Source: a virus
Virus record (IMG/VR): IMGVR_UViG_3300027759_000305
Coordinates: 1-29,817 of that record
Reading direction: 5' to 3' (one strand)
Length of the DNA: 29,817 nt
In this document: positions 3,190 through 29,817 of the stretch, in pieces
Numbering within the stretch: the first letter of the stretch is position 1
How the letters are laid out: each line of letters starts with the position of its first letter
Translations under genes and position numbers: made by a program
The notes under the pieces: model-generated
Databases searched by the model: none
Told to the model about the DNA's origin: nothing
What the model saw: the letters and a program-made list of their open reading frames with translations, nothing else

Positions 3190-4077
3190 TTATAAAAAGG
3201 GTAGTATTGCTAACTCTTTGGCTTTTGCTTCAACCATAATGTCCACATCCAACTCGTATGTATTGGGGATGGCATTAATATACAGCGAGTGAGCTTGCGG
3301 TTTTTCTTTAATGTTGTTTTCATGTAATGCTTTTGATTCTGAGTAGTGCACAATTGGTTTTATGTCTTTAGGCCAAGTTGTTGATGCCAACTGTAAGGCT
3401 TCTTGCTCAGTCATATCTCCGGTACAAAATTGGTGGTGATGGTAATCGAATACAATTGGGATGCCTATCTTGTTATGTATGTACATTAGATCTTTAACTG
3501 AGTACATAGACGCTTTATCGTCGTTCTCTACAGTTAGTCTCTTACGTACCGAAGAGGACAGTCTCTTAAAGTTTTCGCAGAATCTGTCCATCGCTACTGT
3601 CTTGTTTCCGTACACTCCATTGCAATGTATGTTGATCTTGTTGTACGGAGTTTTAGAAAGCCCCATCATATCGAATAGTTTACCGTGCATTTCTAAATCC
3701 GATATGGCGTTATCGACTACACTGTCCTTTGGTGAAGTAAGCACTACGAATGGACCGGGATGACAAGTGATTCTCATATCCCAAAGTTTTGCAAAGTCTC
3801 CTGCCTTTTTTAATTCAGACTTGATCTCTTCGTAATCTTTTAGTTGAGTTATGTCTATGTTGTTTCCCCATGGAATTATGCTAGAAGATAATCTAAATAG
3901 CTTTATTCCGTGCTGTCTGTTCCATTCAAGTACCTTAATGATATCTCTAGAATTTAGGAGCGCCAAATCAGAAACGTAGTCCATTCCTTTGGCTTCGAAG
4001 GTTCGTTTCATCATTGTTCTGTTCATACTAACCTGTTTCTGCAAAGTCATATTGATGCACGCGTAACCTAAATTCAT
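3190..4077 (-). CDS. uvsE: UV damage endonuclease (UVDE)
   Basis: Cuts the DNA backbone 5' of UV photoproducts to start light-independent repair. The N-terminus NLGYACINMTL is the family signature. The TIM-barrel metal site is complete: H106 (ITCHPGP), H151 (INIHCNG), E184 (LTVENDD), D211 and H214 (FDYHHH), H244 (IVHYSES), H263 (QAHS) and E283 (MVEAK). Length (295 aa) is normal for the family. The ATG at 4077 follows a perfect AAATAAAAGTT start motif. Being phage-encoded, it would protect or repair viral DNA in sunlit water, like T4 DenV but from an unrelated family. Confidence 0.93.
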   Translation of the reverse strand: MNLGYACINMTLQKQVSMNRTMMKRTFEAKGMDYVSDLALLNSRDIIKVLEWNRQHGIKLFRLSSSIIPWGNNIDITQLKDYEEIKSELKKAGDFAKLWDMRITCHPGPFVVLTSPKDSVVDNAISDLEMHGKLFDMMGLSKTPYNKINIHCNGVYGNKTVAMDRFCENFKRLSSSVRKRLTVENDDKASMYSVKDLMYIHNKIGIPIVFDYHHHQFCTGDMTEQEALQLASTTWPKDIKPIVHYSESKALHENNIKEKPQAHSLYINAIPNTYELDVDIMVEAKAKELAILPFL

Positions 4078-18941: not shown

Positions 18942-20117
18942 TTAGAATACGTTCTTGATGAATGTACCCATCATTTTGTCTGTGTGGTCTACCATTTGTA
19001 ACACATCGATCTTAAGTCCGTTGTATTCGTACGTACCTACTGCATCTACCGATTCTCTAATGATAACCTGTATATTTGGAACTATGTTTAGATCTACGTT
19101 ATCTTTTGCGTCAAAGTAGATAAGTATATCGTTCTGCTTTGGCTCTTCTATTGGACGCACCCTAGCTTCAAGGATTAGGTCTGTCTTAGGCTGTTCATAT
19201 TTTATATAGTCAGCAATTAAAGCCTGATCTACGTATATGTTATTGAACCATGGCTCTAACGAGAGTAGCAGGTTAGCATCGCAATTCTCCACGACTATTC
19301 CTATATCGTACCTCGGTTTTAATACTGGTCTTTGGTACTTGTCGTTCTCAATCCAACTACCCCATTTTCTAAGATAGTTTCTTGCTGCTTTTGCTGATGC
19401 GTTCTTAAAGTAGTCATCGTCCTTACCAATCTCTTCTGTCCATCTGTGTCCTCTACAAGTTAAGTGATATACGAATGCATCTCTTGACTGGATTAGTTCG
19501 TATCCGTGTAGTAACCATCTTTGAAATATATCTGAATCTTCGTAAGGGAATGGAGCAAACAATGCGTCGTGTCCTCCCATTGCAACGAAGTCTTCTTTGT
19601 ATATAATCCACGGTGCAAACATACCGTTAGTTGTTAAGTCTTTATACTCGTGTTGAGCTTCTAAAACGTATGCTTCAAATGCATTTAAGTTTAGGTTGTC
19701 GAAGTCAGTACCAAAATCTCTAATGATCTTCTCTTCTCCAGCTGGGTGCAATGGCGGTTCTACTCTTGTTGCGCACACTACAGTTTCTCTTTGTAAGTGC
19801 TTTAACATGTTCTCTAAGTAATAAGGACCTAATATCATATCTGCGTGCATGATACCTACCACTTCTGTTTCTGCTAATTGAATTCCTTTATCGTATAGTA
19901 TTGTATGACCAACCCTTTTATCTGATCTATATACTGCAGTGATATTATCGTCGTTAATTCCAGCCAACCATTCTGTGGTACCATCCGTAGAGCCATCGTC
20001 TAACATAATGATCTTACAATTAGGCGCGTGAGTCTTTACGCTTGTATATGCATTCTTTAAGTGTCTTAGATTATTACTAGATGGTATGACTAACGTAACT
20101 TGTTCTTGTGTTAACAT
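18942..20117 (-). CDS. glycosyltransferase family 2, copy A
   Basis: GT-A inverting glycosyltransferase. VTLVIPSSNNLRHLKNA opens the fold, IIMLDDGSTDGTTEW (about 37-50) binds the nucleotide and H91-A-D93 in GIMHADMILGP is the DxD-equivalent metal site. Residues beyond about 240 form a separate C-terminal part without a known domain. It shares the phrases HADMILGP, VCATR-x-EPPLHPAG and VYHLTCRG with the next gene (20111-21247), so the two arose by tandem duplication. They overlap by 7 bp. Sugar and acceptor are unknown. It ends the glycan block on this side. Confidence 0.88.
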   Translation of the reverse strand: MLTQEQVTLVIPSSNNLRHLKNAYTSVKTHAPNCKIIMLDDGSTDGTTEWLAGINDDNITAVYRSDKRVGHTILYDKGIQLAETEVVGIMHADMILGPYYLENMLKHLQRETVVCATRVEPPLHPAGEEKIIRDFGTDFDNLNLNAFEAYVLEAQHEYKDLTTNGMFAPWIIYKEDFVAMGGHDALFAPFPYEDSDIFQRWLLHGYELIQSRDAFVYHLTCRGHRWTEEIGKDDDYFKNASAKAARNYLRKWGSWIENDKYQRPVLKPRYDIGIVVENCDANLLLSLEPWFNNIYVDQALIADYIKYEQPKTDLILEARVRPIEEPKQNDILIYFDAKDNVDLNIVPNIQVIIRESVDAVGTYEYNGLKIDVLQMVDHTDKMMGTFIKNVF

Positions 20118-21247
20118 AATTTTAATTTAGGTTGACTTTCTTTTTTCTCTCTTACAATTAATTTGAATATTTGTAACTCGTATTGCCCAGGTTCCTCAAC
20201 TTCGTTAGTGATTAACTCTGGTAGGTTATGCAGAATATAATTAAAAAGTTCTTGATTATTAAGAATATCTTTGTAGTCTGCTTCTAAAATCATATCTGTA
20301 GTTAACTTGCTAACAAACTTAGCGGCTATATCGAAAGATGAAATGTCTTTATTCTTATTGATGTAGTTAGTAGGATCTGCTTCGCATTGTATCTGATCGA
20401 AGAATGGTTCTACTCCAAGTACACCGTCATTAAAACAATTTAATATTTTTAATCCTACATTGTATTTGATATTCGGTATAGGTTCTAATGTATCAGTTTG
20501 TTTTAAAAATCCGCCCCATTTTCTAATGTATTCATTAGCAGATATTTGATTGTTCTTCTGCCAACTTTCGTCCTTCTTACTAAAGTCTTCCATTTTTTCT
20601 GCGTGTGCAAACTGTCCGCCTCTACATGTTAAATGATACACCATTGCGGACCATGATTGAATCAAATCGTAACCATGTAGTTTGAATCTTCTAAATAAAT
20701 CCGCGTCTTCGAATACCGATAAGAATATAGGATCGTGTCCTAAGTGTTGGTCTTTTCTAATTAACCATGGAGCGAAGATGCTTTTAGTTATCTTATCGCT
20801 TTTGTTAGCTTCAACGAACTTGTTAAACTCTTCTATCTTCAAATCTTCTGGCCACATACCAAAATCCTGTACTATCTTCTCTATTCCTGCTGGATGTAGT
20901 GGTGGTTCTATACGAGTGGCGCACACGATGTTGTCCTTTGTTTTAATATCCATCATGTGTTTATCTGCATGAGGACCAAGAATCATATCAGCGTGAAATG
21001 CTATTACATATTCTCTATCAGCCCATTGAAACATGCTATCGTAAGCGAAACCAATTCCTCTTGGAGTATCTTCGTGGTTTTGAATAAACTTAATACCATT
21101 CTCTCTCAACCATTCTACAGTTCCATCTGTGTCTTGATCTACGTACACAATGATTTGATTCGGGTAATAAGAATTATCTTGAATAGATTTGATACATGGT
21201 TTTAAGTATCTTAAGTTATTTTTCGAAGGGATGCAAAATGAAATCAT
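20111..21247 (-). CDS. glycosyltransferase family 2, copy B
   Basis: Same family and layout as its neighbour: MISFCIPSKNNLRYLKPCIK, then VYVDQDTDGTVEWL for nucleotide binding, then FHADMILGPHADKHM and VCATRIEPPLHPAGIEK. In copy A the uridine loop reads DDGSTDGT, here DQDTDGT, so one acidic residue is replaced by Gln. Length 378 aa. The C-terminal third has diverged more than the catalytic part. Overlaps the GT17 gene end by 4 bp (21244-21247). Probably adds another sugar to the same glycan. Confidence 0.88.
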   Translation of the reverse strand: MISFCIPSKNNLRYLKPCIKSIQDNSYYPNQIIVYVDQDTDGTVEWLRENGIKFIQNHEDTPRGIGFAYDSMFQWADREYVIAFHADMILGPHADKHMMDIKTKDNIVCATRIEPPLHPAGIEKIVQDFGMWPEDLKIEEFNKFVEANKSDKITKSIFAPWLIRKDQHLGHDPIFLSVFEDADLFRRFKLHGYDLIQSWSAMVYHLTCRGGQFAHAEKMEDFSKKDESWQKNNQISANEYIRKWGGFLKQTDTLEPIPNIKYNVGLKILNCFNDGVLGVEPFFDQIQCEADPTNYINKNKDISSFDIAAKFVSKLTTDMILEADYKDILNNQELFNYILHNLPELITNEVEEPGQYELQIFKLIVREKKESQPKLKLC

Positions 21248-22107
21248 CTAAAAAATTGTTTATACTTTTGTTTGTTATCTAGTAAATACTTTGGTAATTG
21301 AGATTCGTCCAACCAAAATTTAAAATTGGTTCTGCCTAAAACGTCTTGACCGTTTGCTAGTAAATCTTTGACTTTATCCTTAACAGAATCGTTGTTATAC
21401 TCTTGGTGGCCGTAAGCTTCTAATTTCATCTTAACTTGTTTCTCTCCTCCCATAAATGTAAAGTGCCAACCTGCATTGTTAACGTACTCGTACTTAGTTT
21501 TTGATGGAGTTCTAAGATGGTTTAAACAAGCTCCATCTATATTTGTATATCTCGTTAATAATGTACCGGCCCAATCTTCTGAAGATCTTATGTTCATGTA
21601 ACCTGAGTATGCTAGTTGTTTTAACTTGTATATCTTATCTTTTTCTATTTGCGTATAGTCTAACTCTGGATTCCATATCTCGTCTAAATCTGTAACAAAT
21701 ATTAGATCGTCGTTCTCTGCTCCAGCATTTTCTATAGCAAATCTTATAGTTTCTTTTTGATAGAATTCTTTTAGCCAGTGTAATTCTCCTTTAGGCACAT
21801 TAGAACTAGTTAAAGCTTGTATACAAACTTGCTTAACATCTTTATCTATATTAGGATTCGTTATTCTTTGTTGTAAATCGTCGAATGATTTTGGTGGATC
21901 ATAAGTTACATGATGGTATATTTTATGTAAATACTTTGAGAACCTCTCTTTGTTATTCATGAAGTGCAATGGCTTCTGTTTACCTGAGAAAGTCTCTACG
22001 CATTCTATCAATACAAATTGATCTACGTAAGGATCTAACATCTCTAATCTTAGTTCTAATAAATCCAATTCATTAAAGAATGTAAACACATCAAATACTC
22101 TAGCCAT
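21244..22107 (-). CDS. glycosyltransferase family 17
   Basis: ARVFDVFTFFNELDLLELRL, then ECVETFSGKQKPLHF, is the diagnostic start of GT17 (the family of MGAT3, beta-1,4-N-acetylglucosaminyltransferase). The metal site is T138-D139-L-D141-E142 in IFVTDLDEIW. Also seen are NAGWHFTFMGG and the closing LPKYLL region usual for the family. 287 aa from ATG 22107; a TTG at 22137 would add 10 residues but overlap the upstream gene by 38 bp. Acts on glycan chains in the cytoplasm; acceptor not known. Confidence 0.88.
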   Translation of the reverse strand: MARVFDVFTFFNELDLLELRLEMLDPYVDQFVLIECVETFSGKQKPLHFMNNKERFSKYLHKIYHHVTYDPPKSFDDLQQRITNPNIDKDVKQVCIQALTSSNVPKGELHWLKEFYQKETIRFAIENAGAENDDLIFVTDLDEIWNPELDYTQIEKDKIYKLKQLAYSGYMNIRSSEDWAGTLLTRYTNIDGACLNHLRTPSKTKYEYVNNAGWHFTFMGGEKQVKMKLEAYGHQEYNNDSVKDKVKDLLANGQDVLGRTNFKFWLDESQLPKYLLDNKQKYKQFFR

Positions 22108-23005
22108 ATATCTTGCTTTCTTTTTTATATAATTCAAATTCTCTAGCTACATCTGTATAAGATTGTAATTGACCTTGTCTATCCATGTATGTAAACTTAC
22201 GAGATATATTATAACCGCAACTCCAATATCCATCAGATACGTTGTGTCTACACCAATACTTTGGTGCTATAATTAGATGAGCATCACTACAAAATGCTGG
22301 AAAATAAGCAAAGCTTGAATTTGATATAATTAACCATTTTGCATTCTTAACAATAGAATAGTCTTTAGCCAAATCAAAGTGGTATACGTTGTCTGCCAAC
22401 TCAGGTAATAATCTCTTTGCCATATCAGGGTTCTCCGTGATCACTAGGAATTGCATGTTCGGGTTTAAACTAAGCATGTGATAGATTGCTTTAACCCAAT
22501 AATCTCTTGATAAGAATAGAGTAGAATCTGCTTCGTAGTCTCTGATATTCAATACGCATATATCATCGTGACTATAATCTAAGCAATCAAATTCTGGTTT
22601 TACTTTCAACCAATCTTTAATCTCCTCTCTATAATCCCAAAAATAATTTTCGCCTTGCATAATACCCATAATTTTAGTATGGTTTTTAACATTCAATAAG
22701 TCTTGATCGATCAATCTTATATCACAACCCAATGTGGCGTCATGATCTGAATGGTTAAACTTTGCTCTTGTTTCTTTTTCTGTGTACACAGTGGGTGCAA
22801 TTGGAAAACCTGGCTCTTCCACTAAAGTTCCTAAATCGATATCCATGAAGTATACGCCTTTATCGTTGTATCTTCTGTCTCCAAAGTTTTCTAATCCAGT
22901 ATAACCAAACGCATAATCATTTCTCTTGGCAATAGCTCGAGTAGTTACATAGACTGCAAGTTGGTTACCAAAACCTTGACCATACATGAATTCTGTGTAT
23001 ATCAT
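22100..23005 (-). CDS. GT11-like (fucosyltransferase-fold) glycosyltransferase
   Basis: The N-terminal GQGFGNQLA (9-17) corresponds to the G-x-LGNQ motif of alpha-1,2-fucosyltransferases. The late LIISNSSFAYFPAFCSD corresponds to their SNSSFSWWGA motif. The central H-x-R-x-GDY motif is less clear: CVLNIRDYEAD may be a diverged version. 301 aa. It overlaps the GT17 gene by 8 bp and lies 1 nt after the epimerase. A GDP-sugar donor is suggested by family but not shown. Compare the clearer GT11 at 25923-26759. Confidence 0.75.
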   Translation of the reverse strand: MIYTEFMYGQGFGNQLAVYVTTRAIAKRNDYAFGYTGLENFGDRRYNDKGVYFMDIDLGTLVEEPGFPIAPTVYTEKETRAKFNHSDHDATLGCDIRLIDQDLLNVKNHTKIMGIMQGENYFWDYREEIKDWLKVKPEFDCLDYSHDDICVLNIRDYEADSTLFLSRDYWVKAIYHMLSLNPNMQFLVITENPDMAKRLLPELADNVYHFDLAKDYSIVKNAKWLIISNSSFAYFPAFCSDAHLIIAPKYWCRHNVSDGYWSCGYNISRKFTYMDRQGQLQSYTDVAREFELYKKESKIYG

Positions 23006-23006
23006 A

Positions 23007-24002
23007 TTATTTTTTCCAGAATGAATAAATGCCTTTGTCTAATTCGTATGAAGGCCAAACGAATCTCTCTCTATTTGGTTGACGTTGAGCCCATAACCAC
23101 ATATCATATAATCCCTCTTCTAATGTAGTCTTGTGTTTAAAACCAAGAATGTCTTCCGATTTCTGGTATGTAGGAATAGAATGCTTTACTTCGTGTCTTC
23201 CTTCTTTGTATTCATACTCAGCTCCGTATTTAATGATGTCTCTTAACACTTTATTAGCATCGTTGATACTCCACTCTTCTACTCCACCTAAATTGATAAT
23301 CTCTTTAGATGCTCTTGGTTCTATAGCAGAATTCCATAGCGGTTCAACTATATCGTCGATACAACTGAATGCTCTTGTTTGTGTACCATCTCCGAAGATT
23401 GTCATTGGTTCTGCATTCATCTGTTGATACATCCAAATACCCAACACATTACGATATTTGTCCCATATATTTTGCTTACGACCGTATACATTGTGAGGTC
23501 TAATGATACACCAATCTAAACCGTGTTGTTCGCCTGCAATTTGAATGTCCATCTCGCAAGCATACTTAGCCACACCGTATGGATCTATTGGCTTAGGCAC
23601 TTGTGTTTCATCGAATATGCCGCCGTAACCATGACCATATACAGCTAACGTAGAAGTAAATATCAATCTCTTCACATCGTACTTAATACAATTATTTACC
23701 ACTCTTGCTGTTGCTACTAAGTTGTTATCGTAGTTGTACCTTCTAATGAATGGGCTTAAACCTTCTGCTGCGTAAGCTGCGAAGTGGAATACGTAGTCAA
23801 ATTCGTTGGTAGCAAAACAATTCTCAATAGGATGTTCTACTAGATTCATCTGCCAGAATTTAACCTTTGGGTTTACATTCTCTAAATAGCCTCCTGATAA
23901 ATCGTCGATACCTACTACCTCTACTTCTGGTTTATTTTCTATTATCCAATCTGCAAGTCTTGAACCTAATAGACCTGCAACTCCTGTTATTAGTACCTTC
24001 AT
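23007..24002 (-). CDS. NAD-dependent sugar epimerase/dehydratase (SDR)
   Basis: Extended-SDR enzyme acting on nucleotide sugars. G7-x-x-G10-x-x-G13 (ITGVAGLLGSR) and D34 in GIDDLSGG define an NAD-type Rossmann fold. S117/T118 and the Y142-G-V-A-K146 pair form the catalytic triad. The Pro-rich DETQVPKPIDPYGVAK approach and C-terminal substrate part resemble UDP-glucose 4-epimerase-type enzymes. 331 aa, normal length. The substrate cannot be named with certainty. Followed 1 nt later by the GT11-like gene. Confidence 0.88.
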   Translation of the reverse strand: MKVLITGVAGLLGSRLADWIIENKPEVEVVGIDDLSGGYLENVNPKVKFWQMNLVEHPIENCFATNEFDYVFHFAAYAAEGLSPFIRRYNYDNNLVATARVVNNCIKYDVKRLIFTSTLAVYGHGYGGIFDETQVPKPIDPYGVAKYACEMDIQIAGEQHGLDWCIIRPHNVYGRKQNIWDKYRNVLGIWMYQQMNAEPMTIFGDGTQTRAFSCIDDIVEPLWNSAIEPRASKEIINLGGVEEWSINDANKVLRDIIKYGAEYEYKEGRHEVKHSIPTYQKSEDILGFKHKTTLEEGLYDMWLWAQRQPNRERFVWPSYELDKGIYSFWKK

Positions 24003-24003
24003 A

Positions 24004-24579
24004 TTATTTAATTATTACAGACCATGAACTGTCTGGATATGTATACAATTCGTTGATCAATCCTTCTTCGTGTAAAATAGTGTAGATGTGTGGTAGATAG
24101 AAATCATGTCCGCATAAAATACCGTTAACTTTAATCTTATTCTTCCACGCATTAATATCAGATCTAACACTAATTGGATCGTGTTCAGCATCTACATATA
24201 CTGCGTCTAATGTTCTGTCTTCAAATTCTTTTGCTGCGTCAACACTAGACTTTCTAACTTTGATAATGTTTTTAATATCTAATGTACGTTCTAAGAATAT
24301 CTTTTCTGCGTCTACAAACAATTGGTCATGAGAAGGAATTCTACCCGATTCAGGTACAACATAATCGTAACAATCAATACTGTATACTTTCTCAACATGC
24401 ATTGCGAATAACATTGTTGAAACTCCTTGAAATGATCCAATTTCTGCCATCACAAACTCGGGTTTAAAGTAGTGTTGTATTAATTCGTGTAAACCTCTTA
24501 CGCTATTGTGAGGTTCTAATGCAGCGTGACCCATTCTTGGGATGTTAAATAGCTCTTCTAATCTTTGTTCGTTGTTCAT
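24004..24579 (-). CDS. class I SAM-dependent methyltransferase
   Basis: E46-I-G48-S-F-x-G52 (VMAEIGSFQGVSTMLFA) is the SAM-binding motif I, SIDCYD (67-72) is motif II and DAVYVDAEHDP holds the motif IV acid. The order and spacing fit the methyltransferase 24 group, whose members methylate sugars or small acceptors. 191 aa, compact. Inside this gene block, O-methylation of a sugar on the growing glycan is the likely role, an inference from context. Confidence 0.85.
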   Translation of the reverse strand: MNNEQRLEELFNIPRMGHAALEPHNSVRGLHELIQHYFKPEFVMAEIGSFQGVSTMLFAMHVEKVYSIDCYDYVVPESGRIPSHDQLFVDAEKIFLERTLDIKNIIKVRKSSVDAAKEFEDRTLDAVYVDAEHDPISVRSDINAWKNKIKVNGILCGHDFYLPHIYTILHEEGLINELYTYPDSSWSVIIK

Positions 24580-25235
24580 TATAAACTTTTTTGTGTTACT
24601 TGATAATAATAATTGTTTCTACCATGAAATCCAAATGGTATGTTTCCGTAGTTCTCGGCTACCATAGTTTCATGACTGAACTCGGCTGCCACTTCTATTG
24701 GAGCAAACTTACATCCTTCTGATTCATAAGTTTTTCTATGGTGACAGCAAAAGAATCCATCTTCATGATAGAATCCATAATACTGTTTCCATTCCAAATC
24801 TAAATCATTTGCCACGCATAATAGCTTTTTACTTCTTAGTGTGAATCCTCCATTTCCCATTCTTTGTATGTTTCCATCTTGATCTCTAAAAGAGAAGTCA
24901 TCTTGAGGATACGGCCACAATGCGCCTATATAATCGTATTGCATCCAATCTTCTTGCCACATGTCTGGATTAACTACATATCCATCGTTCTGTACTAATA
25001 GACAGTGCGTGGTGTTAATATACTCGTGTAGTCTATAAACTATAAAGTGATTGTATTGTTCGTAGTTTAGTGGTTCGCACTTAATGATCTCTACTTGGTC
25101 GTCTTGTATATCTTCTGGAGTAATTAGGATCGCACGGTCAAACTCTAACTCTCTCATAGAGTACTTGATAGCCTTAAGAGTTTCAATAGCTTTAGTGCCT
25201 GCTACAGCAGCAATGGTAACGTTATTTAGTTTCAT
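24579..25235 (-). CDS. DUF5672 family protein, probable glycosyltransferase
   Basis: Recognised by the ordered phrases CLLVQNDGYVVNPDMW, YDYIGALWPYP, GNGGFTLRSKK, YGFYHEDGFFCC and the end PFGFHGRN, which define DUF5672. The ND-G and HEDGFF positions are acidic/aromatic sites like those of GT-A enzymes, so sugar transfer is likely, though not demonstrated for the family. 218 aa. Overlaps its upstream gene by 14 bp and the methyltransferase by one base. Confidence 0.85.
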   Translation of the reverse strand: MKLNNVTIAAVAGTKAIETLKAIKYSMRELEFDRAILITPEDIQDDQVEIIKCEPLNYEQYNHFIVYRLHEYINTTHCLLVQNDGYVVNPDMWQEDWMQYDYIGALWPYPQDDFSFRDQDGNIQRMGNGGFTLRSKKLLCVANDLDLEWKQYYGFYHEDGFFCCHHRKTYESEGCKFAPIEVAAEFSHETMVAENYGNIPFGFHGRNNYYYQVTQKSL

Positions 25236-25938
25236 ATCTTCTTATTACTCGTGATATCTCTTCTTGCTTTTGTTTTTCTGTTATTAAGTTAGTGGCTCTA
25301 ACCTCTGTATTTCTATTCACAGCACACACCATATCAATTACGACAGGATCTCCGTATAACATGTGTAATCTCTTATAGTATTCTACATCCACTAACCAAT
25401 TCAAAGTTTCATCAAATTTTGGTTTCGTATATTCGTTTCTAATTGTTAGTACAGACGGACAACTTATGGTATTAATTCCCGCATATATACGATCATGATA
25501 GTGCGGTGTCATTCTGTCGTACATAGTTACGCAATCATCAGTGTGTACGCATGCAGTGATAAACCAGTCTTTGTCTTGATTCTCAATTATACTATCATAT
25601 ATAATCTGAAGTGAATCTGTATCATATAAGAAATCGTCTTGAAATAACATCTTGATAAATAGACCGCTTGAATGTTCAATGGCGTTATTCATATTAGGGG
25701 CTATCTTGCCTCTACCATGAGAGTTTCTTATGTACTTAATATTCATCATTGAACTCCAAGAGTTACATAAGTTCTCTATGTCATTATCTTCGCTATGATC
25801 TGATATCACTACTTCGTAATCTGTAAAGCTCTGCTGCGCTATTATGTTAAATGAGTGTTCTAAGTATTCAGCTCCTTTGCCTTTAATTCCCCACGTGGGT
25901 ATGGCAATGCTAAAGAAAGGTATTACGCTTTTATCCAT
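25222..25938 (-). CDS. glycosyltransferase family 2, third member
   Basis: FFSIAIPTWGIKGKGAEYLE starts the GT-A fold. VVISDHSEDNDIE (about 44-56) is the nucleotide loop and MLFQDDFLYD (97-106) has the D101-D102 metal site. Sequence phrases differ clearly from the tandem pair at 18942-21247, so it is not part of that duplication. ATG at 25938 is chosen over GTG at 25995. Overlaps the fucosyltransferase gene by 16 bp. 238 aa. Confidence 0.85.
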   Translation of the reverse strand: MDKSVIPFFSIAIPTWGIKGKGAEYLEHSFNIIAQQSFTDYEVVISDHSEDNDIENLCNSWSSMMNIKYIRNSHGRGKIAPNMNNAIEHSSGLFIKMLFQDDFLYDTDSLQIIYDSIIENQDKDWFITACVHTDDCVTMYDRMTPHYHDRIYAGINTISCPSVLTIRNEYTKPKFDETLNWLVDVEYYKRLHMLYGDPVVIDMVCAVNRNTEVRATNLITEKQKQEEISRVIRRYETK

Positions 25939-26759
25939 GATTGAGGGTATAAATCTTTTGTATCGTGAACTCCATTGTATGCAGGTCCGAACCACTTCTT
26001 TGGAGCTACAACTCTTTTATCAGGGTTTTGATTTAACCATGCGCCCCACCAACTAAAACTACTATTGGCTATTACGTTATGGTGGCACATACTCATCATA
26101 CACATGTCTACATCAGGTTCATTTCCTTCCATATAAACAATGTTCTCTTGATCTCCAAATAATTCTTTGGCATATTCTATATCGTCAGAGAATACTAAGA
26201 AGCAATAGTTACCATCCATAAAATAGGTCATAGCATTGAAGTAATAGTCTGCGTCCATTACTGGATGGAATTGTTGAAGTCCTGCATAATCTCCCTTTCT
26301 TAAATGTACAGACACAAATTCTAATTGCATAGGAAAGGTTGGAAATGCAGACTCTGCTTTCTTTTTTGTTTCTGAATTAAACTCAAAGAATTCTCGTATT
26401 GTTTCGCTACAGTGTTCAAAGTACTTCTCTGTCTGAAAGTAACCCATTAAATTGGTTTGATCTGGTACTCTAAATAGATCTTGACAGAAATGAAAGTATG
26501 GTTCTTGCGCTACGTGTAATGTTTGTATTTCAGATTGTGGTTTCAGTGTTAACTTAACATTATCGAAGTACTTTGGTAAATCAAAATAAACCTCTCGCCT
26601 AACTCCGTCTTTGAAATGCTCTACGCTTGGCACATCTACATTCTCTTTTGGAAATGCTACATCATGTCCAGTTTTATTAGCTACACCTACAGTGGAAGCA
26701 AACTGAAACATTTGATTGCCTAACCTTCCAAAATGTCCTATCTTATTATAACTTATCAT
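25923..26759 (-). CDS. alpha-1,2-fucosyltransferase-like (GT11)
   Basis: All three GT11 signatures are intact: GRLGNQMFQFA (11-21), SVHLRKGDY (150-158, the H-x-R-x-G-D-Y motif that binds the GDP-sugar) and IANSSFSWWGAWL (230-242). 278 aa is the typical length. The enzyme should transfer a 6-deoxyhexose, normally L-fucose from GDP-fucose, to an acceptor sugar. The partial GDP-fucose-synthase-like gene at 29525-29817 in the same block would match that donor. Overlaps the SDR gene by 4 bp. Confidence 0.92.
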   Translation of the reverse strand: MISYNKIGHFGRLGNQMFQFASTVGVANKTGHDVAFPKENVDVPSVEHFKDGVRREVYFDLPKYFDNVKLTLKPQSEIQTLHVAQEPYFHFCQDLFRVPDQTNLMGYFQTEKYFEHCSETIREFFEFNSETKKKAESAFPTFPMQLEFVSVHLRKGDYAGLQQFHPVMDADYYFNAMTYFMDGNYCFLVFSDDIEYAKELFGDQENIVYMEGNEPDVDMCMMSMCHHNVIANSSFSWWGAWLNQNPDKRVVAPKKWFGPAYNGVHDTKDLYPQSWIKA

Positions 26760-27571
26760 ATCATTTGTTTAACTGCTTCGTAAACTCCTATAGAAGGGAA
26801 AAATCCTAATGATCCTAATTTGCTTGAGTCCAAATACATGGACTCTACTTGTACTATCTTATGAAAGTCTGACGCTTCCATAGTTCCTATATTACTGTTA
26901 GATCCTATTTCTTGTTTAGCGTAAGCGATAATATCTTTGAATAGCGTTGGCTTTCTTGCAGATCCTAAATTGTATATCTCCCCGCTTTCTCCACGATCCA
27001 TAACAAACTTAATACCATCAACTACATCGTCAACGTGTACGAAGTCTCTATAGAATTCTCCATTGTTATACAAGTTAATGTCTCTACCCGCCTTCAATTC
27101 GTCTATTAAAAATTGTAATGCGTTCTTTTTCTTTGAAACTTTGCCGTCTCCTTTGCCTATTACATTTCCAAGTCTTACGATCTTGTATTTAATATTAAAT
27201 GTCTTGCAGTAAGATTCTATTAATTGTTCTGCTGCTAATTTAGTTATAGAATAGAATCCCTTTGGTTTACATGGAGAAGTCTCTCTAGCTGGTAGGTGGG
27301 TATCACCGTAAACAAACCAAGAACTAACGAATGTAAACTCTATATCTTTTCCTTTACAGTTCTCCAATACTTTCATTAGATGCGTTAGATTTGTTTCTAT
27401 GTCTATGAAAGGATTCTCTAACACGTTGTAGTTATCTACTGTACTAATTAGGTATAGTACTCTATTAGATTTAGGTTGTAATTCATCTCTTGATATTAAG
27501 ACTGAATTTTCTTTATGTTTGTTATAGAATTTTGACCCTATAAATCCTGTTCCTCCGAATATCGATATCAT
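26756..27571 (-). CDS. NAD(P)-dependent sugar reductase/epimerase (SDR)
   Basis: G6-G7-x-G9-x-x-G12 (IFGGTGFIGSK) opens an extended SDR. S83/S84 precede the Y107-S-I-T-K111 catalytic pair. 271 aa is shorter than typical 4-epimerases. Directly downstream of the RfbH gene and joined to it by one base, it is a good candidate for the reductase that follows the 3-dehydration, as RfbJ/RfbS follow RfbH in dideoxyhexose pathways. That pairing is inference from position. The core is complete and no key residue is missing. Confidence 0.85.
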   Translation of the reverse strand: MISIFGGTGFIGSKFYNKHKENSVLISRDELQPKSNRVLYLISTVDNYNVLENPFIDIETNLTHLMKVLENCKGKDIEFTFVSSWFVYGDTHLPARETSPCKPKGFYSITKLAAEQLIESYCKTFNIKYKIVRLGNVIGKGDGKVSKKKNALQFLIDELKAGRDINLYNNGEFYRDFVHVDDVVDGIKFVMDRGESGEIYNLGSARKPTLFKDIIAYAKQEIGSNSNIGTMEASDFHKIVQVESMYLDSSKLGSLGFFPSIGVYEAVKQMI

Positions 27572-28857
27572 TATTTAAACTTTTTTACTACTTGTTCAAT
27601 GTATGCAAACACTTGTTCTGTGTAATGAGGTGCAGCGCCTATAAAAAATACTTTGTCTAATACTTTATTTGCTTCAGGATAATTTTTATAGTCATCCAAG
27701 AATGAATAGCCTGGATGCATTAAAATATTTCCAGCAAAATAGTTTCTTGTTTGTATTTTATTCTCTTCTAAGAATGCAACCAATCTGTGTTTCAATCCAT
27801 CTTCATCGCATATAAATGGAGTGCCAAACCAACAAGGATCTGCTAACTCTAATTTAGATGGTGATCTTAAATTTGGAATGTTATCTGTAAAGATCTTTGT
27901 CAATCTCGCTTTAGCCGATCTTCTCTTTGCTTCCATTTCGTCTAGCTTAATTAACTGTTCCAATCCAATTGCGCCTTGTAAATCCAACGGTTTTAAGTTG
28001 TAACCCATTTGAGAGAACACATACTTGTGATCGATAACTCCATCGTAGTTGTCTAACCACTTGTCAAATCTATTACCGCACGTACCGCAAGGCAATAAGT
28101 TAGCAGATCCTATGCAATAGCAATCTCTACCCCACCAACTAATACTTACGAATAGTTTCTTCAACTCATCGTCGTTAGTACAAATCATACCGCCTTCTCC
28201 AGTTGATATGTGATGCGCAGGATAAAATGAATTAGAGAACGCAACGTAATATTCACTTAAAAATTTACCATTCCATTTAGATCCTAAGCTATCGCAATTA
28301 TCTCCAATCAATTTTAAATTATACTTCTCAGCCATTGCAACCAATCTATCCATATCTGGAGGGTTACCCAATACTGGTGATATGAATATACCTCTTGTTT
28401 TATCTGTTATCTTGGCTTCTACTTGATCTAAGTCAAAGTTAAGTGTATCCCATTCTATATCAACGAATACAGGTTTCAATCTGTGTTGGTACAATACTGA
28501 TACTGTTGTAGCGAATCCAACTGGAGACACAATGATTTCGTCATCGTCTGCCCAATTGAATCTCTTCTTTAGTGCAGCGATCAATACCAAGTTAGCAGAG
28601 CTACCTGAATTTACCATGTGCGAGTGCTTAACGTTGAATCTCTTACTAAATTGGTTTTCAAACTTATAAACCTTTTCACCGGTAGTAATCCACTTACCAT
28701 TTAAGAAACTTTCTATTGCTGCTTCGGTCTCTTTATTATCCCAATAAGGACCAGAGTAGTAGATTGGTGTTTTGCCTGGCGTGAAGTTCTTTGCATTGTA
28801 AATGTAAGGAGCTACGTGGTTACCAACTAACTCTTGTATATTTTCTAGTTTAATCAT
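27571..28857 (-). CDS. rfbH: RfbH-type 3-dehydratase (PLP, [2Fe-2S])
   Basis: DegT/DnrJ/EryC1 superfamily with the traits of CDP-4-keto-6-deoxyglucose 3-dehydrase (E1, RfbH) rather than an aminotransferase. In SFYPAHHISTGEGG, H215 stands where aminotransferases have the PLP lysine. Iron-sulfur cysteines are C188 (GDNCDS), C246 and C248 (RDCYC) and C260 (GTCGNRF). C188-x57-C246-x-C248 matches the published E1 spacing as I recall it; the last gap is longer (x11). An extra C257 lies nearby. It removes the sugar 3-OH on the way to 3,6-dideoxyhexoses. 428 aa from ATG 28857 (a TTG at 28905 is rejected), with ATGA overlap to the upstream gene. Confidence 0.92.
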   Translation of the reverse strand: MIKLENIQELVGNHVAPYIYNAKNFTPGKTPIYYSGPYWDNKETEAAIESFLNGKWITTGEKVYKFENQFSKRFNVKHSHMVNSGSSANLVLIAALKKRFNWADDDEIIVSPVGFATTVSVLYQHRLKPVFVDIEWDTLNFDLDQVEAKITDKTRGIFISPVLGNPPDMDRLVAMAEKYNLKLIGDNCDSLGSKWNGKFLSEYYVAFSNSFYPAHHISTGEGGMICTNDDELKKLFVSISWWGRDCYCIGSANLLPCGTCGNRFDKWLDNYDGVIDHKYVFSQMGYNLKPLDLQGAIGLEQLIKLDEMEAKRRSAKARLTKIFTDNIPNLRSPSKLELADPCWFGTPFICDEDGLKHRLVAFLEENKIQTRNYFAGNILMHPGYSFLDDYKNYPEANKVLDKVFFIGAAPHYTEQVFAYIEQVVKKFK

Positions 28858-29525
28858 TTTATGTTTGGGTTGAATATGTAACATTCTAATCTTTCTATCA
28901 TCCAAGGAGAACTTTCATCTTCCACTAAAAAGTCGACTACTTTTTTATAGAATTCTTTAGATCTTAATTGAGCATGTTCTTTGGTAATTCCGAAATGTCC
29001 ACCAGGCATGAATTCATATTCAGCAGGTTTTTCATCAGTAAATAATAAATCCCAGTATTTGTCTACGTTTATATTTGGATTAGAATCTTGAGGATATCCG
29101 TTGCTTTGACAAACTAATACATTGCCGTCTCCGTGTTGTTTAGATGGACTCAATGCCCACATACAACCTCCTAATGGTGAAGGAACAGTTATTGTATTGA
29201 AATGAAATCCGTAATAGCCTCCTATTTTTAATTGATGCCTAAGATTTTCAGTGCCATTATTTACAACTTCTACAATATTTTCCCAATGATCGAAAGGCCA
29301 ATCTTGACCAAAGAAAGTAATGTCAGATAAATTGTCGTAGTTAGTGTATATGTGATTAAAGAAAGTGTGTACGCATCTGCCCTTATTAGGTTCTAATTTA
29401 ATCTCGTCTTCTCTTTGTTTTGCTTCTTCTCCTTTTCTATAAACAGTAACTTTAATATCTGAATTGAATTTGTCTAACCAATCCAAGTATTTGTCGTACG
29501 CTGCTATTACTATTTCTCTTGTCAT
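28854..29525 (-). CDS. DUF3431 family protein, glycan-related
   Basis: REIVIAAYDKYLDWLDKF, then VHTFFNHIYTNYDNLSDITF with FFGQDWPFDHW, is the DUF3431 signature. A second block has GGHFGITKEHAQLRSKEFY. The family is found beside glycosyltransferases in bacteria, fungi and viruses; a sugar-transfer role is presumed but not shown. 223 aa. ATGA overlap with the RfbH gene and 1-nt overlap with the following SDR fragment support one operon. Confidence 0.85.
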   Translation of the reverse strand: MTREIVIAAYDKYLDWLDKFNSDIKVTVYRKGEEAKQREDEIKLEPNKGRCVHTFFNHIYTNYDNLSDITFFGQDWPFDHWENIVEVVNNGTENLRHQLKIGGYYGFHFNTITVPSPLGGCMWALSPSKQHGDGNVLVCQSNGYPQDSNPNINVDKYWDLLFTDEKPAEYEFMPGGHFGITKEHAQLRSKEFYKKVVDFLVEDESSPWMIERLECYIFNPNIK

Positions 29526-29817
29526 TATTTTCTAACTTTTGGATAATTTAATATAAACCATTCTATTGATTCTTTTAAACCTTTCTCCAAAGTGGTGAAT
29601 TCATATTCTCCAATGATACTCAAAAGTTTGGCATTAGACGATGGTTTTCTATGTTGACCATTTGGCTTGTCTGTCAACCACTTTACTTTGCCCTTGAAGT
29701 CCATGTGCTCCACAATTAGGTCTACTACTTGCTTAATAGAATACTCAGTTGGATTTGATATGATCACTGGTTCAGTCCCTGTGTATTTCTGGATAAGTAG
29801 ATCCACTATGTTTGCTA
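29525..29817 (-). CDS. GDP-L-fucose-synthase-like SDR, C-terminal part only
   Basis: The frame runs off the right edge; the ORF has no ATG inside the window, and GTG at 29806 is internal to the phrase ANIVDLLIQKYTG. The visible 97 codons match the substrate-binding end of GDP-fucose synthase/WcaG-type reductases: VIISNPTEYSIKQVVDLI, then KPNGQHRKPSSNAKL and EFTTLEKGLKESIEWF. If complete, it would make GDP-L-fucose, the donor for the GT11 enzymes downstream. The other half and any Gmd partner would lie beyond the window. Confidence 0.8.
   Translation of the reverse strand, partial: ANIVDLLIQKYTGTEPVIISNPTEYSIKQVVDLIVEHMDFKGKVKWLTDKPNGQHRKPSSNAKLLSIIGEYEFTTLEKGLKESIEWFILNYPKVRK

Follow-up and report, generated by a model that had tools for sequence, protein, structure and literature searches.

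The window analysed here, a stretch of 29,817 nt that comprises positions 1 to 29,817 of the IMG/VR virus record IMGVR_UViG_3300027759_000305, raises the question of whether a phage keeps a working gene for an RfbH-type sugar 3-dehydrase and, if so, which sugar the enzyme would help to make and where that sugar would go. The 3,6-dideoxyhexoses are uncommon sugars, best known from bacterial LPS, of which they form immunodominant parts. We consider it likely that the gene encodes an E1/SpnQ-type sugar 3-dehydrase within a phage glycan island; its cofactors, reaction, electron source, nucleotide carrier and acceptor are what we infer from the evidence below.

An intact dehydrase gene and its predicted active-site residues

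The gene and the codons of its predicted active site are located as follows.

27571-28857, minus strand: E1/RfbH-type PMP-dependent sugar 3-dehydrase with a predicted [2Fe-2S] site, 428 aa (family match, alignment, fold, tree)
28294-28296, minus strand: codon of C188, equivalent to Yersinia E1 C193 (alignment)
28213-28215, minus strand: codon of the predicted catalytic H215, equivalent to E1 H220, in place of the PLP lysine (alignment)
28114-28122, minus strand: codons of C246 and C248, equivalent to E1 C251 and C253 (alignment)
28078-28080, minus strand: codon of C260, equivalent to E1 C261 (alignment, viral conservation)

The reading frame runs from an ATG start at 28857 down to 27571 with no internal stops, while stops occur throughout the plus strand of this interval. 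Thus, the original prediction of an intact RfbH-type gene in a phage was correct, the gene being uninterrupted on the minus strand. Its start overlaps the stop of the upstream gene by 4 nt (28854-28857) and its stop overlaps the start of the downstream gene by 1 nt (27571), which constitutes an operon-like arrangement. Against relatives whose proteins are 84-92% identical, the pairwise dN/dS is about 0.04; such strong purifying selection indicates that the gene has been selected to stay functional.

The protein contains cysteines at positions 188, 226, 246, 248, 257, 260, 342 and 350, and H215-H216 lie within the motif SFYPAHHI. Alignment with PDB sequences places C188, H215, C246, C248 and C260 on C193, H220, C251, C253 and C261 of Yersinia pseudotuberculosis E1 (RfbH/DdhC/AscC, CDP-4-keto-6-deoxyglucose-3-dehydrase, 3bcx). 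In agreement with what had been proposed from the sequence, a histidine takes the place of the PLP lysine, and C188-x57-C246-x-C248 plus C260 align with the cysteines of the E1 site. A histidine for the lysine together with four cysteines holding a [2Fe-2S] cluster is the hallmark of the E1/SpnQ enzymes (PMC8987622, a review of E1/SpnQ/ColD chemistry). The exact E1 spacing, C-x57-C-x1-C-x7-C, is not kept, since the phage protein reads C188-x57-C246-x1-C248-x11-C260; the four extra residues already noted in this region are thus real. The fifth cysteine, C257, had also been singled out, but distant phage relatives have other residues in its place (SNGVC, LKGSC). We rejected it as an extra ligand, an unlikely role because the position is variable. 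Yersinia E1 has an extra cysteine of its own at its position 257, unrelated to that of the phage protein.

IMG/VR yielded 64 viral loci with relatives of the dehydrase, 62 of the copies being of the Cys type. All four cysteines and the histidine are kept in 61 of these 62, the remaining one being a truncated frame, and each aligned viral copy has histidine, never lysine. This conservation, together with the low dN/dS, indicates that the Cys/His set is not due to chance. The loop between the last two ligand-position cysteines has 11 residues in 59 viral Cys-type copies, a count made jointly with the Yersinia-type reference rows. In 65 cellular copies it has 7, although a few cellular RfbH copies also depart from x7. 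The four-residue insert in the C248-C260 loop is a hallmark of the clade.

Family placement and the proposed ketoreductase partner

RfbH is by far the top NCBIfam family of the dehydrase (5.6e-108), with a score of 361.4 bits against the equivalog NF011936 that lies under its curated cutoff of 423. The best PDB match by sequence is Yersinia E1 (1.1e-75; about 35% identity over the full length), ahead of ColD (GDP-4-keto-6-deoxymannose 3-dehydratase, 2gms). In the same way, the AF2 model (pLDDT 90.7) has E1 as its top PDB hit, with a TM of 0.85. Residues 249-251 of the cluster loop have a pLDDT below 50, so the geometry of the four cysteines cannot be read from the model.

We built a tree of 70 rows by a quick search, in which the program flagged the long ColD branches. 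The phage copies group together (SH-aLRT 100), well apart from Yersinia E1 and ColD, in a clade within which two sequences from bacterial MAGs are nested; the viral pair L057 and L059 is more distant and falls outside. The tree places the window protein among the His/Cys 3-dehydrases and not with ColD. Clustering with the lysine aminotransferases would have spoken against the original prediction; it is very improbable that the protein is a DegT-family aminotransferase making an amino sugar. Such an enzyme would share the fold family, and SpnQ can transaminate without a reductase (PMC8987622); however, the histidine and the four conserved cysteines argue against it, as do PDB scores that drop sharply from E1 and ColD towards the lysine aminotransferases. 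As a separate observation, a Cys-type RfbH and a ColD-like paralogue lie within 10 kb of each other in each of the viral loci L057, L059 and L067.

The gene downstream of the dehydrase encodes its proposed partner.

26756-27571, minus strand: NAD(P)-dependent SDR, 271 aa, with GGTGFIG and YxxxK motifs, proposed 4-ketoreductase (motifs, orthology)

A ketoreductase lies within two genes of RfbH in 57 of the 59 viral loci with a visible neighbour, a count that leaves out three further loci ending at a contig edge. The partner is the 271-aa SDR in loci of the window type and an RmlD-like protein (Pfam RmlD_sub_bind) in others; the two exceptions have an SDR elsewhere in the locus, a few kb off, which in cyanophage S-H68 is the orthologue itself. 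Cyanophages and two bacterial MAGs have an orthologue of the 271-aa SDR beside the same RfbH type. In both MAGs the SDR comes before RfbH: the Nitrosomonadaceae MAG has the pair in a chromosomal setting, and the Bacteriovoracales MAG has it next to rmlA/rmlB-like genes. The two bacterial loci with the SDR-RfbH pair (L080 5138-8023; L081 5138-6903) may have given the phages their cassette or acquired it from them.

A pathway to an NDP-3,6-dideoxyhexose is expected to pair a 3-dehydrase with a 4-ketoreductase (PMC8987622, PMC7851689), and their adjacency in nearly all viral loci suggests that this is the most likely product of the two phage enzymes. In the mechanism that we propose, PMP on the dehydrase would form a Schiff base with an NDP-4-keto-6-deoxyhexose, H215 would take a proton and the C3-OH would leave. 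Host ferredoxin- or flavodoxin-reductase systems of the general kind would then supply two electrons, which a [2Fe-2S] cluster on C188, C246, C248 and C260 would hand to the intermediate. Reduction of the 4-keto group by the adjacent SDR would give the NDP-3,6-dideoxyhexose, and glycosyltransferases of the island would move the dideoxyhexose, most likely onto a component of the phage particle.

Electron supply and nucleotide carrier

As the original prediction stated, the window contains no E3/RfbI partner, and the Fer2 domain of E3 was found neither there nor in the 120-175 kb relatives. It is absent from 38 of 39 records, which are fragments but include contigs of 174, 169, 162 and 122 kb. 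The sole exception is cyanophage S-H68, with a 2Fe-2S ferredoxin; a phage-encoded E3 or ferredoxin was thus rejected for the other records searched. An E3-like signature, sought as a simple motif within 6 kb of cellular RfbH genes, is rare there too (2/80). SpnQ works with ferredoxin or flavodoxin and their reductases where E1 uses E3 (PMC8987622), which makes host electron donors plausible here. The need for such donors, anticipated beforehand, is consistent with the lack of E3, and this lack makes the host the probable source of the electrons, in the manner of SpnQ.

The enzyme had also been expected to make 3,6-dideoxyhexose precursors for O-antigens. The E1-type enzyme stands, but its filing in a CDP-linked rfbF/G/H/I O-antigen pathway is not supported. 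A search of the window and the 120-175 kb relatives for rfbF-, rfbG- and rfbI-like genes returned no RfbF, no RfbG above cutoff and no Fer2. Across 50 records, which may be fragments, neither RfbG nor RfbF rises above cutoff (one weak 29-bit match for RfbF), and a classical CDP operon beyond the window was rejected on this ground. It is therefore doubtful that the phage completes a host CDP-linked pathway to paratose, abequose, tyvelose or ascarylose and in this way modifies the O-antigen or capsule of its host, for instance as a block to superinfection. The nearest homologue of known structure is indeed the CDP-linked Yersinia E1, and the Nitrosomonadaceae MAG with the phage-type pair has, on another contig, a classical rfbH/rfbG locus in which a true CDP-glucose 4,6-dehydratase lies beside a second RfbH. 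Against this stand the missing RfbF and RfbG, the score under the RfbH cutoff (361 vs 423 bits), a clade apart from Yersinia E1 and an island without membrane-like or flippase-like proteins.

Another carrier is suggested by the nearest relatives of the window, where the gene order is GMD-Fcl-DUF3431-RfbH, and by the GT11 gene near the dehydrase. The dehydrase could act with these upstream genes in a ColD-like route to GDP-colitose or a related GDP-sugar. We regard this as unlikely, since the Fe-S cysteine set kept here is missing in ColD, and several relatives of the same clade have RfbH and the SDR without adjoining GMD and Fcl, which may simply supply GDP-fucose for GT11. Also, the true ColD-like genes of other phages (L060-L065) form a separate clade. 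These genes, with the histidine and without the Fe-S cysteines, are flanked by Fcl and mostly also by GMD, and are a candidate phage set of the GDP-colitose type.

Returning to the phage 3-dehydrase of E1/SpnQ type, the clues to its carrier differ among loci: GMD/Fcl in relatives of the window, rmlA/rmlB in one MAG, and a cytidylyltransferase-like protein with an RmlC-like epimerase in cyanophages. A dTDP carrier would, if anything, be favoured by the RmlD-like partner and by rmlA/rmlB as neighbours. In S-H68 (L066 5546-8291), a PF01467 cytidylyltransferase-like protein, a 4,6-dehydratase-like SDR, an RmlC-like epimerase and the orthologue of the 271-aa SDR follow one another, an arrangement reminiscent of a self-contained dideoxysugar set.

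The glycan island, its probable host and comparison with known systems

The dehydrase and the SDR are surrounded by the following genes.

29525-29815, minus strand: C-terminal part of a GDP-fucose-synthase-like SDR that is truncated at the contig end
28854-29525, minus strand: DUF3431 protein, upstream neighbour in the clade of the window, glycosyltransferase-like by context only
25923-26759, minus strand: glycosyltransferase family 11
25222-25995, minus strand: glycosyltransferase family 2
24579-25235, minus strand: DUF5672 protein, glycosyltransferase-like by context
24004-24579, minus strand: Methyltransf_24 methyltransferase
23007-24002, minus strand: SDR nucleotide-sugar epimerase/dehydratase
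22100-23005, minus strand: protein sharing a BLAST cluster with the GT11 gene, without a Pfam match
21244-22137, minus strand: glycosyltransferase family 17
18942-21247, minus strand: two glycosyltransferase family 2 proteins (20111-21247 and 18942-20117)

In the relative L002 the GDP-fucose-synthase-like SDR is full length (299 aa) and preceded by a GDP-mannose 4,6-dehydratase. By hydropathy, no island protein has a strongly membrane-like stretch, and in L035 the cassette adjoins a tail fibre gene. Both points favour, without proving it, an acceptor in the cytoplasm, for instance a protein of the virion. From this circumstantial support, a glycan of the phage particle is likelier than the O-antigen as the candidate destination.

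One possible acceptor is encoded at 1862-2956 of the window (minus strand), where a Laminin_G_3 domain comes after a mucin-like Ser/Thr/Pro repeat (66 of 92 residues, positions 39-130). The relatives G006, G029 and G016 (TPT type) have similar VTPS-repeat proteins, and L032 has one encoded upstream of RfbH, a few genes away. The co-occurrence of repeat and cassette is weak evidence, because the repeats are missing in G024 and a DNA pattern for them has very many matches in the viral collection, at least those listed; the protein was set aside as an acceptor on these grounds.

The sugar could also be placed on phage DNA, by glycosylation of hydroxymethyl-pyrimidines, and not on a protein or host glycan. 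Several relatives encode proteins of dCMP-hydroxymethylase size that could serve such a role:

L177 272-916, minus strand: thymidylate-synthase-family protein, about 214 aa
L178 191-829, plus strand: thymidylate-synthase-family protein, about 214 aa

However, these genes are patchy among the relatives, none being present in the 174-kb G006, which has the full island, and the many diverse glycosyltransferases fit a branched glycan better. We rejected DNA modification, which is quite improbable as the role of the cassette.

As for the host, a Shine-Dalgarno motif was found in none of the 40 window genes checked, and many starts are preceded by AATAAAAGTT and A-rich leaders, as expected in Bacteroidota. 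A T4-type gp23 capsid gene is found in the large relatives, the G006 copy being nearest to that of Flavobacterium phage immuto (53%). The island sits in T4-like phages that probably infect Bacteroidota. Additionally, the window encodes at 3190-4077 (minus strand) an endonuclease matching phrog_8420 (3.4e-51), which we take to be UV-damage-endonuclease-like.

The phage dehydrase resembles Yersinia E1 in fold, catalytic histidine and four-cysteine positions, and differs from it in its longer loop, its clade, its reductase partner and in that E3, rfbF and rfbG were not found. By description and not by sequence, it can be likened to SpnQ (dTDP-4-keto-2,6-dideoxyglucose 3-dehydrase), a Cys/His 3-dehydrase without a dedicated E3 (PMC8987622) that acts on a different substrate in an antibiotic pathway, that of spinosyn. 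With ColD it shares the fold, the histidine and, in the clade of the window, GMD and Fcl nearby as in a GDP-sugar pathway, but not the clade or the lack of Fe-S cysteines. The Kyanoviridae cyanophages S-H68, S-B43 and S-B05 have homologues of the same clade (S-H68 in the tree) at 58% identity and share the orthologous SDR and a glycan island with GT11. Unlike the window, they carry a cytidylyltransferase-like (TagD) gene, and S-H68 also the RmlC-like epimerase and the ferredoxin.

Viral rfbH already figures in published lists of auxiliary metabolic genes (PMC10653327, PMC11295528). Our non-exhaustive literature search found no description of the phage clade, its loop insertion or the reductase pairing; the enzyme class is known, and the phage-centred branch and the two-gene pairing appear to be undescribed. 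We tentatively put forward, as one possibility, that this Fe-S 3-dehydrase branch, which few bacteria share, draws on a non-CDP 4-keto-6-deoxysugar (a host dTDP-rhamnose intermediate or a GDP-linked one) and host electron carriers and, with the ketoreductase, makes 3,6-dideoxysugars on phage particle proteins, possibly Ser/Thr/Pro-rich mucin-like ones.

Phages of the window type are likely to make their own rare sugars while borrowing electrons from the host. The recurrence of a two-gene cassette of Fe-S dehydrase and ketoreductase in T4-like phages of probable Bacteroidota and of Synechococcus hosts suggests that phages could carry their own route to 3,6-dideoxyhexoses. Indeed, the cassette constitutes a compact and testable enzyme set, through which the working of an E1-type enzyme that lacks a dedicated reductase can be studied.
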